The notes under the pieces: model-generated
Databases searched by the model: none
Told to the model about the DNA's origin: nothing
What the model saw: only the letters and a program-made list of their open reading frames with translations
Source of the DNA: Alphaproteobacteria bacterium
Lineage (GTDB): Bacteria; Pseudomonadota; Alphaproteobacteria; Reyranellales; Reyranellaceae
Assembly (NCBI GenBank): GCA_017308235.1
Contig: JAFKFL010000023.1
Location: 1 to 64,000, forward strand
Direction of reading: 5' to 3'
Length of the DNA stretch: 64,000 bases
Shown here: one piece after another, positions 3,321-21,566 of the stretch
How the letters are laid out: each line of letters begins with the position of its first letter
Position numbering within the stretch: position 1 is the stretch's first letter
Program-made: the position numbers and the translations under genes

Positions 3321-5336
3321 ATGGCGAAGAATGGCGATCTGTTCGAGCGCTCGGGCGGCAAGCGTGCCGCGACGGGCAAGGACTCCTCCTACACCGCCCG
3401 TGATATCGAGGTGCTGGAAGGACTTGAGCCCGTCCGCAAGCGCCCCGGCATGTATATCGGCGGCACGGATGAGCGAGCAATGCATCACCTCGCCGCCGAG
3501 GTCCTCGATAATGCAATGGACGAAGCCGTCGCGGGGCATGCCGACACGATCCATCTCGAACTGTTGCCCGGCAACAAGGTCCTGATCCGCGACAACGGCC
3601 GCGGCATGCCGGTCGATCCTCACCCCAAGTTCAAGAACAAATCGGCGCTGGAGGTCATCCTCACCACCCTGCATTCGGGCGGCAAGTTCAACAGCAAGGT
3701 CTATGCGACTTCAGGTGGTTTGCACGGCGTGGGCGTTTCCGTCGTCAATGCGCTGTCCGACGAGGTCACGGTCGAGGTTGCCCGCGATCGCCAGTCCTGG
3801 ACGCAAAGCTTCTCTCGCGGCAAGCCTACGTCGAAACTGAAAGCAAATGGCGCGGCGCCGAACCGGCGCGGTACGACGGTGACCTTCCATCCCGATCCCG
3901 AGATCTTTGGCAAGCAAGCGTTCGTGCCCGAGCGGCTCTACCGCATGGCGCGCTCCAAATCCTATCTCTTCCGCGGCGTCGAGATCCGCTGGAAGTGCGA
4001 CAAGAGTCTCCTGAAGGGCGGCACGATCCCCGAGGAGGAATCGTTCCATTTCGCCGGTGGCCTCAAGGATTACCTGGTCTCCGAGATCGGCGAGCGGCCG
4101 ACGGTCGTGCCCCAGCCGTTCGCCGGCGAGGCAAAGAGCGAGACCAATGGAACTGCGGGGGGCAAGGTTGAGTGGGCCGTCTGGTGGCCGAACGACGAGG
4201 AAGGCTTCGTCCGCTCCTATTGCAACACCGTGCCGACGTCTGATGGTGGCACGCACGAGTCGGGTTTCCGCAGCGCCCTGGTCCGCGGCCTGAAGCGTTA
4301 TGCCGAGCTTACGGGCAATCGCAAGGGATCGGTCATCACGGCCGACGATGTGATCGACGGCTCTGCCGGCCTCGTCTCGATCTTCATCGAGCAACCACAG
4401 TTTCAGGGCCAGACCAAGGAAAAGCTGGTGAGCGTCGAGGCGACCAAGCTCGTGGAGACGATCGTCGGCGACAACTTCGAGCATTGGCTGACGGGCGACA
4501 AGGAAGCCGGTAACGTGCTCCTCGAGCACGTAATCGCCAAGGCCGAGGAGCGGCTACGCCGCAAGCAGGACCGCGAGCAACAGCGCAAAACAGCAACGCG
4601 CAAGCTGCGCCTACCCGGCAAGCTCGCCGATTGCAGCAACACGGCGGCCGAGGGCACCGAGATCTTCCTGGTAGAAGGCGACTCGGCCGGCGGTTCGGCT
4701 AAGGCCGCGCGCAACCGCGAGACACAGGCGATCCTGCCCCTGCGCGGCAAGATCCTGAACGTGGCGAGCGCCAGCGCCGACAAGTTGCGCGAAAACCAGG
4801 AAGTGCAGGACCTGATCCAGGCGCTGGGCTGCGGTACTGGCGCCCACTACAACGACGATCGCTTGCGCTATGAGCGGGTCATTATCATGACCGACGCCGA
4901 CGTCGATGGTGCACACATCGCTTCCCTCCTGATGACGTTCTTTTACCGCGAGATGCCGAAGCTGATCGAGAACGGCCATCTCTTCCTTGCCCAGCCGCCG
5001 CTCTATCGTCTCAGCAAGGGAGGGCGCACCGAGTACGCGCGCGATGAAGCACACAAGGACGAGCTGGTGCGCGACGTGTTTGGTGGCGGCAAGATCGATA
5101 TCACCCGCTTCAAGGGCCTGGGTGAGATGCAATCCGTGCACCTGCGCGAAACGACCATGGACGTGAACAAGCGCGTTCTGCTCAAGGTCGATGTCCCGAC
5201 GTCGAGCGACGCGGATGAGCGACGGCTCGAGATGCAGACCCGGACCCTAGTGGAGGATCTGATGGGCCGAAAACCCGAAAAGCGCTTCGCTTTTATCCAG
5301 GAAAACGCGAAATTCGCCCGCGACCTCGACGTCTGA
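3321..5336 (+). CDS. parE: DNA topoisomerase IV subunit B
   Basis: The 671-residue protein is a complete type IIA topoisomerase ATPase subunit. The GHKL ATPase part shows the RKRPGMYIG box, the DNAMDEA Asn/Glu motif that binds Mg-ATP, DNGRGMP and GGLHGVGVSVVNALS. The TOPRIM part has EIFLVEGDSAGG with its catalytic Glu and DADVDGAHI with the metal Asp residues. The C-terminal KGLGEMQ is typical of ParE/GyrB. With ParC it decatenates sister chromosomes. The AFG-type features that distinguish GyrB insertions are absent and the length matches alphaproteobacterial ParE. The ATG at 3321 is preferred over an earlier in-frame ATG at 3213 because it begins the conserved ParE N-terminus. Confidence 0.96.
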   Translation: MAKNGDLFERSGGKRAATGKDSSYTARDIEVLEGLEPVRKRPGMYIGGTDERAMHHLAAEVLDNAMDEAVAGHADTIHLELLPGNKVLIRDNGRGMPVDPHPKFKNKSALEVILTTLHSGGKFNSKVYATSGGLHGVGVSVVNALSDEVTVEVARDRQSWTQSFSRGKPTSKLKANGAAPNRRGTTVTFHPDPEIFGKQAFVPERLYRMARSKSYLFRGVEIRWKCDKSLLKGGTIPEEESFHFAGGLKDYLVSEIGERPTVVPQPFAGEAKSETNGTAGGKVEWAVWWPNDEEGFVRSYCNTVPTSDGGTHESGFRSALVRGLKRYAELTGNRKGSVITADDVIDGSAGLVSIFIEQPQFQGQTKEKLVSVEATKLVETIVGDNFEHWLTGDKEAGNVLLEHVIAKAEERLRRKQDREQQRKTATRKLRLPGKLADCSNTAAEGTEIFLVEGDSAGGSAKAARNRETQAILPLRGKILNVASASADKLRENQEVQDLIQALGCGTGAHYNDDRLRYERVIIMTDADVDGAHIASLLMTFFYREMPKLIENGHLFLAQPPLYRLSKGGRTEYARDEAHKDELVRDVFGGGKIDITRFKGLGEMQSVHLRETTMDVNKRVLLKVDVPTSSDADERRLEMQTRTLVEDLMGRKPEKRFAFIQENAKFARDLDV

Positions 5337-5436
5337 GCGCTTACAGCCGCCTGACAAATGCCGCGCAACAATGTGACGTGAAAGACCAACGGCGCTGGCC
5401 TAGGATCATCGCTGAAGACTATGGAGGGCACTCCCC

Positions 5437-15581: not shown

Positions 15582-16082
15582 CTACGGCCGGACCGCCGTC
15601 ACCTCGATCTCGACCAGAAACCCAGGACCGGCGAGGCCGGCGACCTGCACGACCGAGCGCGATGGCAGGTTCGGCTGGGCGGCCGTACCAAAGAATTGGG
15701 TGTAGGCGGCCATGAAGCCGGAAAAGTCCATTCGGCCGCCCTTCGCCGGATCGCCGACCAGGAAGACCTGCATCTTGGCGACGTCGCCCATCTTCAGGCC
15801 GAGGTCGCCCAGCGTCTTGTCGATCGCCTTCAGGACGGATTCGGTCTGGGCCTTGGTGTCGCCGTAGGCCGCGATGGTGTTCTTGTCGGCGTTCTTGTCG
15901 AGGACCGACGGCACGACGCCGCTGAGATACACCGTGGTCTTGCCCGCAGGGACCTCGACTGCCAGGGAGATCGGGAAGTTGGAGTTCGGCAGCTTATGGC
16001 GAACCACGTCCTCGGCTCCCGCCTGCGTGGCCGCCAATAGGCCCACTGCTGCAAGCGCGCCTAAAGCGATGGGCGATTTCAT
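15582..16082 (-). CDS. Exported RidA family imine/enamine deaminase
   Basis: The 166-residue protein is a RidA/YjgF domain behind a cleavable signal peptide (1-24, MKSPIALGALAAVGLLAATQAGA). Two residues needed for RidA deaminase activity appear to be kept: Arg in LPSRSVVQV (equivalent to E. coli Arg105) and Glu in LVEIEVTAV (equivalent to Glu120). RidA proteins hydrolyse reactive imines and enamines, such as those released by amino-acid oxidases, to keto acids and ammonia. Most are cytoplasmic; export is unusual. The gene follows the cytochrome c gene after 30 bases, downstream of the amine oxidase, so the likely substrate is the imine made by that enzyme. Confidence 0.85.
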   Translation of the reverse strand: MKSPIALGALAAVGLLAATQAGAEDVVRHKLPNSNFPISLAVEVPAGKTTVYLSGVVPSVLDKNADKNTIAAYGDTKAQTESVLKAIDKTLGDLGLKMGDVAKMQVFLVGDPAKGGRMDFSGFMAAYTQFFGTAAQPNLPSRSVVQVAGLAGPGFLVEIEVTAVRP

Positions 16083-16112
16083 CACGGCGCTTTCCCTTCC
16101 ACTATTGAACGA

Positions 16113-16526
16113 TCATCGAGCATCTTTGACGTCTTGGGCGGTCACGGCGTCCGTGTAGTCATTGTCGAAATGAGTCCGGATGTAGTTGACCACAGCGGCC
16201 ACCTGATCGTCGCTCAGCATCCTGCCGAAAGGAGGCATCGCTTTATGTCCGCGCAGGACGAGGGAGACAGCGTAGCCGTTGGATTTCAGCGCTTCGTTCC
16301 GGACCAGCGACGGATAGTGCCCGGCACCGACAGCACCCTTCCCGTCACTCATGTGACAAGCCTGACAAAGATTGGTGTAAAGTGCCTCGCCGGTCTGCTC
16401 GCTGAATTGGCGTCCTGAGCTCAGTGTCGGGCCAGCGGAATCGGCTAGGGAACCTGAAACACTGCCAACTGCGGCAAGAAACGAGAAGAACGCGAAAAGG
16501 CCGAATAGCCGCAGTCTCTTAATCAT
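16113..16526 (-). CDS. Exported c-type cytochrome
   Basis: The 137-residue protein has a signal peptide (about 1-29) and one haem-binding CQACH motif (about 54-58). A Met in AMPPFGRML (about 96-104) is a fitting sixth ligand, so it is a small class I cytochrome c acting in the periplasm. The ATG at 16526 sits five bases after the stop of the amine-oxidase gene, with GGGGTG upstream; a GTG at 16535 that overlaps the stop is an alternative start. Its place between an exported flavin amine oxidase and an exported RidA suggests it takes electrons from the flavin. Confidence 0.88.
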   Translation of the reverse strand: MIKRLRLFGLFAFFSFLAAVGSVSGSLADSAGPTLSSGRQFSEQTGEALYTNLCQACHMSDGKGAVGAGHYPSLVRNEALKSNGYAVSLVLRGHKAMPPFGRMLSDDQVAAVVNYIRTHFDNDYTDAVTAQDVKDAR

Positions 16527-16531
16527 CGTCG

Positions 16532-18133
16532 TCACCCCTGCAGAACGCGCTTGTGCAAGCGACCGATCGCGTCGAGCGACGACAAGATCGCCCCTTCCTG
16601 CCAGGCCGGAATGTACGATGCATGCTCGCCGGCCAGGACGATGCGGCCATCGATCTGGCAGAGATTGTCGTAGTGTTCCTTTCTCGCCTCGTCCGTCCAG
16701 TCGCCGGCACATCCCAGCGTGAAGGGCGAGCGATGCCAGGCGACGGAGATGCCGTTCTCGAACTCCGTCTTGTACTGCGGATGGATCTGGGCGCCGTACT
16801 CGAGCGCGCGCTTCACCCGCTCCTCCGGCGCCATGGCCGTGAGCTCGTAGGAATTCGGCCCGTTCCAGGTATAGCAACCCAGCAGGACGCCCTTGCCGGT
16901 CGAGTTGTAGTCGGTGCTGGGATAGGAAATCTGCCTGATCGGCAGATCGGTGTAGCTGATGCCGCCGAAGATGACGTCGTCCTCCTCCCAGAACCGGCGC
17001 TTGAACTGCAGGCCGACCTTGACTGAGGAAGCATAGGGCACCGCACCGATCGCGGCCTTCATGGCATCGCCGACTTGAATATCGATCTGGCTCAGGATGG
17101 TGAGCGGAATGGTACATACGCACCAATCGGCAATTGCCTTCTGCACGATATCAGGGGTTTTCGCGTCCTCGTAAAAAACCGTCACGCCCTTGTCGTTCTG
17201 CTCGATCTTGGTGACCTTCGCATTGTAGGTGATGAGGTCACCGACCTGTTTGGCAAATGCCTCACCAATCTTTCCCATGCCCCCAATGGGCTGGAACATA
17301 GTGGTCTGGAATTCGTAAAGCGTGAATGAGGTCAAGCCGAGCCACAGGCGCGATTGCAGGATGTCCGACAGGCCGATGATCTGCCCTGCAACCGGCTCGG
17401 CACCGAGGCCGCCGCCAGGATCTTTTGCGTAACCGCGGAATTCCGCGGTCAAATCGCCCACCTTGTAGGCATAGTCCTTGTCGAGAGCGCCCCACGAGCG
17501 CAGCGCCTGGAGCAATACCTCCCGATCTTCCTTGGTGACGAGCTCATCCAGTTCGCCCTTTTTCACGGCCTTGGCCAGCAACTCCGATGTGTGGCCCTGG
17601 AAGTCAGTCTTGATCTCGCGAATGCGCTGCGGCTTGCCGCCAAAGGCTTTGGAGGAATGCAGGTACGCATTGTGGTTCAACTGCTGAAACGGCTCCAGCT
17701 TGACGCCAAGACGCTTGCAGTAATCGAGCAGACCGTTGTGGTGGAAGGGGATGCGCCACGGGCCGGGATTGAGATAGAGGCCGTCGTCGAATTCACATTT
17801 CTGCGTGGCACCACCGAGCTCGGTATAGGTGTCGCCGCCACGTAGTGACCAGTTGCGTCCGCCAGCGCGATTGTTGAACTCGAGGACTTTGACCTTGTAG
17901 CCAGCCTGCCGCAGTTCCAGCGCTGCAGTCAGGCCGGCCAAGCCAGCCCCCAGGATCAGCACCGACGCGCCTTTGGGATCGCCCTCCAGCTTGATGCGCC
18001 CCTTGTAACCTGACTCGGCCGCGTACCCCAGGCTGGTCATTGCCTGATACATCGCCGCACTGCCGGCGGTCAGACCAATCAGCTTCAGCATATCGCGCCG
18101 GCTCATACCGTCATCGGGTTCTTCCTGCAGCAT
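16532..18133 (-). CDS. Tat-exported flavin monoamine oxidase family enzyme
   Basis: The 533-residue protein has a twin-arginine signal (MSRRDMLKLIGLTAGSAA, residues 10-27) and a FAD-binding start at about 57 (VLILGAGLAGLTAALELRQ), followed by the LEFNNRAGGRNW block. The C-terminal part has GRIVLAGEHASYIPAWQEG, the usual FAD/substrate cap of monoamine and L-amino-acid oxidases. Export in folded form with FAD fits the Tat route. The ATG at 18133 has GGGGGA upstream. It heads an operon with a cytochrome c (overlap region) and RidA. By analogy with NicA2, which donates to cytochrome CycN, it may be a dehydrogenase rather than an O2-using oxidase. The amine substrate is unknown. Confidence 0.88.
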   Translation of the reverse strand: MLQEEPDDGMSRRDMLKLIGLTAGSAAMYQAMTSLGYAAESGYKGRIKLEGDPKGASVLILGAGLAGLTAALELRQAGYKVKVLEFNNRAGGRNWSLRGGDTYTELGGATQKCEFDDGLYLNPGPWRIPFHHNGLLDYCKRLGVKLEPFQQLNHNAYLHSSKAFGGKPQRIREIKTDFQGHTSELLAKAVKKGELDELVTKEDREVLLQALRSWGALDKDYAYKVGDLTAEFRGYAKDPGGGLGAEPVAGQIIGLSDILQSRLWLGLTSFTLYEFQTTMFQPIGGMGKIGEAFAKQVGDLITYNAKVTKIEQNDKGVTVFYEDAKTPDIVQKAIADWCVCTIPLTILSQIDIQVGDAMKAAIGAVPYASSVKVGLQFKRRFWEEDDVIFGGISYTDLPIRQISYPSTDYNSTGKGVLLGCYTWNGPNSYELTAMAPEERVKRALEYGAQIHPQYKTEFENGISVAWHRSPFTLGCAGDWTDEARKEHYDNLCQIDGRIVLAGEHASYIPAWQEGAILSSLDAIGRLHKRVLQG

Positions 18134-20987: not shown

Positions 20988-21566
20988 TCAGCGGCGGGTC
21001 AGCCGGACGATCTCGCGCTCGACGTACCGCTCGACAATCGGCGGCAAGTTGCGATCGAGCCAATCCTTCAGCATTGGCCTCAGCATTTCCTTGACCAGGT
21101 CTTCGATGGTCTTGCCGCCATGACCAACGGACGGTCCTGCTTCGGAAGCCCGGGGAGGCGGAACGCTGTCCTGAACCGCCTGATTCAGGCGCTCAAATGC
21201 GGAAGTCGTGGCACCGGCCACGCTGGAACCAAGCAGGGGTTCGGAGGATTCGTGCTGAGACTGGGGCATTTCTGGGGCACTCACAGGGTCGATACGAGAA
21301 AGTGGAATGGAAGTAGGCTGCGATGACGTAGGCTGCACTTCGGGCGTGACAGGGTCTTCGATCAAATCCGTTAGGAGCAGGACATCGTCACCTTTTGCCG
21401 GCTCCGTGGCAGCCGACGGCGGGACCGGCGATCCGGCGGTCGCATCGCGGCGAAGCGGCGGATCGCCAGTCTGCGAGCGCGCCTCGTCGTCAGAAATGAT
21501 CTTACGAATGGACGCCAGGATGTCGTCCATCGAAGGATCGTTATTCGGGCTACGGCCATCACTCAT
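20988..21566 (-). CDS. popZ: DUF2497/PopZ-type polar organising protein
   Basis: The 192-residue protein has the two conserved ends of the PopZ family: an N-terminal helix PSMDDILASIRKIISDDEA (about 11-29) and a C-terminal oligomerisation region TIEDLVKEMLRPMLKDWLDRN (about 151-171) continuing to the end. The middle (30-150) is a low-complexity Pro/Ser/Glu-rich linker. In Caulobacter, PopZ forms a polar matrix that anchors the ParB-bound centromere and recruits signalling proteins. Here it sits five bases after the TolC-family gene's neighbour region and before valS, an arrangement common in Alphaproteobacteria. The gene ends at a clear terminator. Confidence 0.88.
   Translation of the reverse strand: MSDGRSPNNDPSMDDILASIRKIISDDEARSQTGDPPLRRDATAGSPVPPSAATEPAKGDDVLLLTDLIEDPVTPEVQPTSSQPTSIPLSRIDPVSAPEMPQSQHESSEPLLGSSVAGATTSAFERLNQAVQDSVPPPRASEAGPSVGHGGKTIEDLVKEMLRPMLKDWLDRNLPPIVERYVEREIVRLTRR

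Follow-up and report, generated by a model that had tools for sequence, protein, structure and literature searches.

Predicted export of a Rid3-type imine deaminase encoded with a Tat-type L-amino-acid oxidase and a cytochrome c

The lao, cytochrome c, and rid gene set

The window analyzed here (the whole 64,000-nucleotide stretch at the start of contig JAFKFL010000023.1, from an alphaproteobacterium of the Reyranellaceae) contains a compact set of three genes on the minus strand, lao (18133-16532), a cytochrome c gene (16526-16113), and, in last place, rid (16082-15582). The cytochrome c gene begins 5 nt past the lao stop, and 30 nt separate it from the rid ATG. The lao product, a predicted FAD L-amino-acid oxidase/dehydrogenase of 533 aa (16532-18133; PF01593, E = 1.7e-55), has the Rhodococcus L-amino acid oxidase 2jae as its best PDB match (E = 5.9e-85). 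Its Tat-type N-terminus (18020-18133, minus strand) includes MSRRDMLKLIGLTAGSAAMYQAMTSLGYA, with the twin-arginine-type stretch MSRRDMLKLIGLTAGSAAMYQAM near the start of the protein. The second gene encodes a c-type cytochrome of 137 aa (16113-16526) with a Sec-type N-terminus and the heme motif CQACH at residues 54-58 (16353-16367, minus strand). The sequence-only reading had placed an exported oxidase directly beside rid; the direct neighbor is in fact the cytochrome c gene, and the oxidase, which does have a Tat-type N-terminus, lies one gene further upstream. Elsewhere in the window, a gene at 20988-21566 (minus strand), beside valS, encodes a PopZ-family protein that scores over the curated cut-off.

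Three residues of the Rhodococcus enzyme, an Arg, a Tyr, and a Trp, are retained in the LAOs that neighbor the Rid genes (130/131 with one gap, 131/131, and 131/131, respectively). We take all three to be substrate-binding, the Arg presumably being the one that holds the amino-acid carboxylate. The window LAO combines these residues with the PF01593 match, the combination by which we recognized L-amino-acid oxidases, and differs from the Rhodococcus enzyme at two pocket positions (F275 and A476). It also pairs a Tat signal with an adjoining gene for a Sec-type cytochrome c, the arrangement that characterizes NicA2-type genes (PMC12224317).

The rid gene (15582-16082, minus strand) is predicted to encode a Rid3-type imine deaminase of 166 aa counted from the ATG. 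A GTG at 16085, one codon 5' of the ATG, is an equally possible start, and a Shine-Dalgarno-like GGAAGG (16095-16100) lies 9 nt 5' of the GTG and 12 nt 5' of the ATG. The protein matches the Pfam family Ribonuc_L-PSP (PF01042; E = 2.8e-18, 66.5 bits versus a curated cut-off of 27.3), one of 17 such matches in the whole genome, which include tandem pairs on contigs C32 and C20. The NCBIfam names TIGR00004, RutC, and enamine/imine deaminase were not adopted for the window protein because all scored under their own cut-offs. The closest solved structures are PFL_1385 (9bkc, 1.4e-36) and PSPTO_3006 (9bka, 3.3e-33), which share 45-46% identity with the window Rid. Foldseek searches with its AlphaFold model, of moderate quality (pLDDT 64) and used for fold recognition only, returned 9bka and 9bkc on top, followed by RutC and TdcF, indicating a Rid fold.

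PFL_1385 and PSPTO_3006 have been put in subfamily Rid3 (PMC5619798), the pattern of which is a retained Arg and Glu with replacement of Tyr17 by Ile (PMC4433059). The window Rid has the same pattern, namely Arg142 (codon 15657-15659; the equivalent of RidA Arg105, linked to imine hydrolysis), Glu158 (15609-15611; the equivalent of TdcF Glu120), and Ile38 (15969-15971; the equivalent of TdcF Tyr17). Residue numbers are counted from the ATG, and Arg142 and Glu158 become 143 and 159 when counted from the GTG. In the alignment, the Arg and the Glu are present in 155/155 sequences each and the Ile in 149/155, which bears out the earlier claim that the Arg and Glu tied to deaminase activity are retained.

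A Sec-type signal on the Rid protein

The Rid N-terminus reads MKSPIALGALAAVGLLAATQAGA, followed past the predicted cleavage site by ED, and combines a basic n-region, an uncharged h-region, and an A-X-A site. The predicted Sec signal peptide (16014-16082, minus strand) has 23 aa, ends in AGA, and scores 11.06 under the home-made simple Sec rule (pass at 8 or above), not SignalP, by which all signals were called. The sequence-only reading had described a 24-residue signal, a length that holds only from the GTG. Its main point, a typical Sec-type signal with an AGA site, is upheld by the relatives: in our close-relative set, the best 80 of at least 511 confirmed matches in genome contigs, 79/80 pass the rule with a median score of 10.02, and the sole failure (L057) has no basic residue. 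Homologs that start past the hydrophobic segment, named beforehand as the observation that would count against a signal, occur only in signal-less groups such as the Pseudomonas clade described below.

Two controls were applied to the rule: 10% of shuffled versions of the relatives' N-termini pass, as do 22/5530 internal starts. Within its own genome, the window Rid is the only one of 17 Rid genes to pass; the other 16 score 7.83 or less, so that the margin of the rule is not wide. In a sample of 397 genomes from the phylum, 25/28 Rid genes score at least 7.5 and 23/28 at least 8, those below 7.5 being G646, G698, and the truncated G668.

A lipobox pattern flagged 11 Rid loci. Six of these appear lipoprotein-like by eye (L152, L153, L165, L166, L179, and L181), and all six pass the Sec rule too; L074 was retained beside them. 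Four others (L026, L034, L055, and L088) were set aside because the Cys lies within the h-region, ahead of the AXA site. At L005:1486-1995 (a G032 contig), a Rid of another lineage with 33% identity has a strong Sec-like N-terminus (score 13.55) and is possibly an independent exported Rid.

We considered that the hydrophobic N-terminus might be an uncleaved anchor, or that translation begins past it, leaving the protein in the cytoplasm. The cytoplasm is the usual location of Rid proteins, and an in-frame GTG stands at codon 27 (GTG numbering), just past the hydrophobic segment. However, the called cleavage sites have Ala at -1 in 130/131 and Ala or Val at -3 in 114/131 cases, residues that the score itself favors, and the pattern is kept in nearly all of the close relatives (79/80 of the best 80 of at least 511). 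Comparison of the signal segment with that of an 89% identical relative (L011) revealed 3, 5, and 11 differences at codon positions 1, 2, and 3, respectively; with 11/19 changes at third positions, the segment displays the pattern expected of translated sequence. Together with the lipoprotein-like variants and the joint absence of the Rid signal and the LAO Tat signal (see below), these observations make both an uncleaved anchor and a start past the segment very improbable.

Conservation and co-occurrence of the gene set

The lao gene lies upstream of rid on the same strand in 73 of the 80 close loci (best 80 of at least 511). Within these 73, the oxidase has a twin-Arg motif in 72, the exception (L063) being cut by a contig end, and an ORF with a CxxCH motif is located between lao and rid in 71; the two loci without it (L042 and L045) are both cyanobacterial. 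Seven signal-bearing Rids of the 80 (L044, L046, L047, L072, L081, L082, and L086) have no lao within 5 kb. At L057 and L076, the lao frame beside rid is interrupted by a stop well ahead of the usual end. Two CxxCH motifs occur between oxidase and Rid at L157, L158, and L169, where a diheme cytochrome may replace the monoheme one, and a region of ~10 kb at L170 (G365), with genes on both strands, contains a pair of oxidases and a pair of signal-bearing Rids.

The 397-genome sample, apparently the same draw for both scans, was searched for Rid at E ≤ 1e-20 and for the oxidase at E ≤ 1e-60. Rid was detected in 27 genomes and the oxidase in 29: both were found in 26 genomes, the oxidase only in 3, Rid only in 1 (a truncated Rid), and neither in 367 (Fisher p 2.5e-36, with genomes counted without regard to descent). 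Among the 22 adjacent lao-rid pairs of this set, 16 are separated by 300-900 nt, and a CxxCH motif is present in 16/16 of those gaps; the other 6/22 are too close for a cytochrome.

A Rid of this type is present in 3/61 genomes of the window's genus. Six longer regions around the valS-phyH site were obtained from Rid-less genomes; the cluster is absent in five of them, and the sixth is that of G023, where a Tat oxidase and a cytochrome (L271:5478-7438) occupy the site without Rid and the next gene (4796-5434) is macro-domain-like by eye. A Tat-type lao with a nearby cytochrome but without Rid was found in G506, G556, and G678 as well as in G023, so that Rid, though often present, is a dispensable partner of the oxidase and cytochrome.

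The seven signal-bearing Rids (best 80 of at least 511) with no lao within 5 kb could point to a wider role for the exported protein in the envelope, on imines from other sources, with lao as no more than frequent company. This explanation appears quite unlikely, given that lao is found in 26/27 genomes of the phylum sample that bear Rid and that Rids lack the signal where LAO is no longer exported.

Joint absence of both export signals in Pseudomonas

In the genus of G646, taken to be Pseudomonas, 40/149 genomes contain a match, and two kinds of cluster occur side by side. In the first kind, Rid has a signal and an uncharged stretch follows the twin Arg of the oxidase. In the second, PSPTO_3006-like kind, most Rids have a signal-less start near MSDSIQRTSVGDFPIS; the oxidases read RREALSSIAAVGGEKAVKDALAVLG or near it, where the twin Arg is a relic and charges interrupt the hydrophobic stretch.

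A Rid tree, midpoint-rooted and built with the signal left out, comprised 154/156 rows (L174 and L253, shorter than 100 aa, were dropped). All 18 signal-less Rids group in a single clade (support 85), and lao is adjacent in 17 of these loci (L171, L172, L226, L230, L235, L237-L244, L246-L248, and L250). It lies within a larger clade of 38 members (support 97), in which its immediate sister is placed with weak support (36). Counting from the first RR, 2-4 charges follow the twin Arg in 16/16 readable oxidases of the signal-less clade (L244 and L249 were not readable), whereas the oxidases that accompany the 19 signal-bearing Rids elsewhere in the 38-member clade, all of them Tat-like, have at most 1 charge there. 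Among 123 scored Rid/oxidase pairs, both signals are present in 104, neither in 16, and the two disagree in 3. All three discordant pairs are doubtful: L034 has an intact motif, L180 has two Arg within a start that is otherwise Tat-like, and the start of L224 is hydrophobic without a basic residue. Because the joint absence is confined to a single clade, it represents one evolutionary event (2 independent pairs). The fact that both signals are absent together ties the location of Rid to that of the oxidase, and both enzymes of the signal-less clade have apparently moved to the cytoplasm.

The Pseudomonas pairs also bear on the role of the cytochrome, since 37/38 are too close for a cytochrome gene and 20/38 of their Rids have a signal. 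Judging from the sequences, predicted Rid export goes with that of the oxidase rather than with the cytochrome. These pairs, together with the two cyanobacterial loci, favor an explanation in which LAO is a periplasmic O2-using oxidase that yields H2O2, Rid clears the imines, and the cytochrome serves something else; the Tat enzymes without a cytochrome in PMC12224317 were mostly oxidases. In the window, however, the cytochrome gene begins only 5 nt past lao, and a cytochrome is present in 71/73 close lao-rid loci (best 80 of at least 511), so that we regard this explanation as doubtful for the window enzyme.

Comparison with known systems

The same three genes in a row are known from Gluconacetobacter diazotrophicus as lao-cccA-ridA (GDI2456-2454), a cluster described in 2016 as needed for auxin formation (PMC5053998). 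In the lao mutant, the three transcripts fall together and indole-3-acetic acid is abolished, and conservation of the cluster was noted in Caulobacter and Xanthomonas (PMC5053998). As in the window, the G. diazotrophicus LAO has a Tat signal; the available part of that account uses "signal peptide" for methods and for LAO, not for RidA (PMC5053998). The ridA forward primer, at nucleotide 142, encodes ASTIYLS at codon 48, where the window Rid has KTTVYLS (ATG numbering; PMC5053998, Table 1), which indicates an equally long N-terminal extension on the G. diazotrophicus Rid.

Of the two structurally characterized relatives, PFL_1385 has a signal-like N-terminus like the window Rid, whereas PSPTO_3006-like proteins lack a signal. 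The words "signal" and "periplasm" are absent from the main text of the Rid3 paper (PMC5619798). In complementation of Salmonella ridA, 4/6 plasmids worked, and the two failures are unnamed in the available text (PMC5619798); for that reason, this result was not used as a sign of PFL_1385 export. RidA or sometimes Rid3 genes have been reported to cluster with FAD amine oxidases (PMC4433059).

The flavoenzyme and cytochrome of the window resemble NicA2/Pnao/CycN and other cytochrome c-using flavin amine dehydrogenases, in which a Tat flavoenzyme is encoded beside a Sec cytochrome c (PMC12224317). In contrast to the NicA2 type, the window has an LAAO-like enzyme with the carboxylate Arg and a third gene, rid; the terms "amino acid oxidase" and "Rid" are absent from the main text of PMC12224317.

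The closest parallel for an extracytoplasmic LAAO with a RidA partner is Chlamydomonas, where LAO1 and LAO2(RIDA) have been placed in the periplasm (PMC10805672), a precedent overlooked by the earlier premise that Rid proteins act in the cytoplasm or mitochondria. Unlike the window system, that of Chlamydomonas is eukaryotic and has an H2O2-forming oxidase, and the available part of its description gives no cytochrome c partner (PMC10805672). The RidA of a chitin pathway was dropped as a further periplasmic case because it is discussed among cytoplasmic steps (PMC9537276).

The Chlamydomonas periplasmic complex of an LAAO with a RidA-type subunit (the non-catalytic M-beta, according to PMC5053998) suggests that the exported Rid might be a stable subunit or protector of LAO and not mainly an imine hydrolase, and the tight lao/rid co-occurrence agrees with such a role. 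Yet the catalytic Arg and Glu are invariant (155/155), Rid3 proteins act on snake-LAAO imines (PMC5619798), and some lao-cytochrome pairs exist without Rid; a mainly structural role is thus unlikely.

Proposed function of the gene set

Flavin amino-acid oxidases release imino acids. From the gene order, signal-like sequences, catalytic residues, synteny, co-occurrence, and joint absence of signals described above, we infer the export, the electron acceptor, the imine substrate, and the benefit in the following scheme, a periplasmic module for amino-acid oxidation that we consider the probable function of the gene set. The Tat-exported flavoenzyme would oxidize an L-amino acid to the 2-imino acid, and its electrons would probably pass to the Sec-exported cytochrome c, making it a dehydrogenase and not an O2-using oxidase. 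Once released, the imino acid would be hydrolyzed by the Sec-exported Rid3, giving the 2-oxo acid plus ammonium; Rid3 would thereby speed this step and prevent the reactive imine from persisting in the envelope. Given spontaneous hydrolysis of imines, Rid could contribute only marginally.

Two published observations bear on this scheme. PFL_1385 and PSPTO_3006 compete in vitro for the imines formed by snake LAAO from Leu, Gln, Phe, Met, and His (PMC5619798). Among NicA2-related enzymes, a Tat signal together with a neighboring cytochrome c predicted dehydrogenases that use the cytochrome, and most Tat enzymes without a cytochrome were fast with O2 (PMC12224317). Taken together, the activity of Rid3 proteins on LAAO imines and the Tat/cytochrome rule make a periplasmic L-amino-acid dehydrogenase with its cytochrome and an imine hydrolase the likeliest function. 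The proposal of the sequence-only reading that an exported Rid serves the imines of an exported oxidase gains support from the gene order, the co-occurrence (26/397 genomes), the conserved signal, and the joint absence of signals.

In the open-licence literature searched, we found no statement on the export of the cluster's bacterial Rid or on the linkage of Rid and LAO signals. Since the cluster itself has been published, those two points are what the present analysis adds. More broadly, we lean toward dedicated extracytoplasmic imine hydrolysis as part of a widespread respiratory module, in which Rid would be exported by a Sec or lipoprotein signal and its location would evolve with that of the flavoenzyme.

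In 2015, the substrates of Rid1-3 in vivo were described as unknown (PMC4433059), and the Rid literature that we found treats cytoplasmic functions. Export of a Rid whose constant neighbor makes imines would name both a compartment and a source of the imine, and Pseudomonas, which has the predicted exported as well as the non-exported version, offers a ready comparison. The analysis further suggests that a set of "L-amino acid oxidases", that of an auxin-forming bacterium among them, are probably dehydrogenases linked to cytochrome c.
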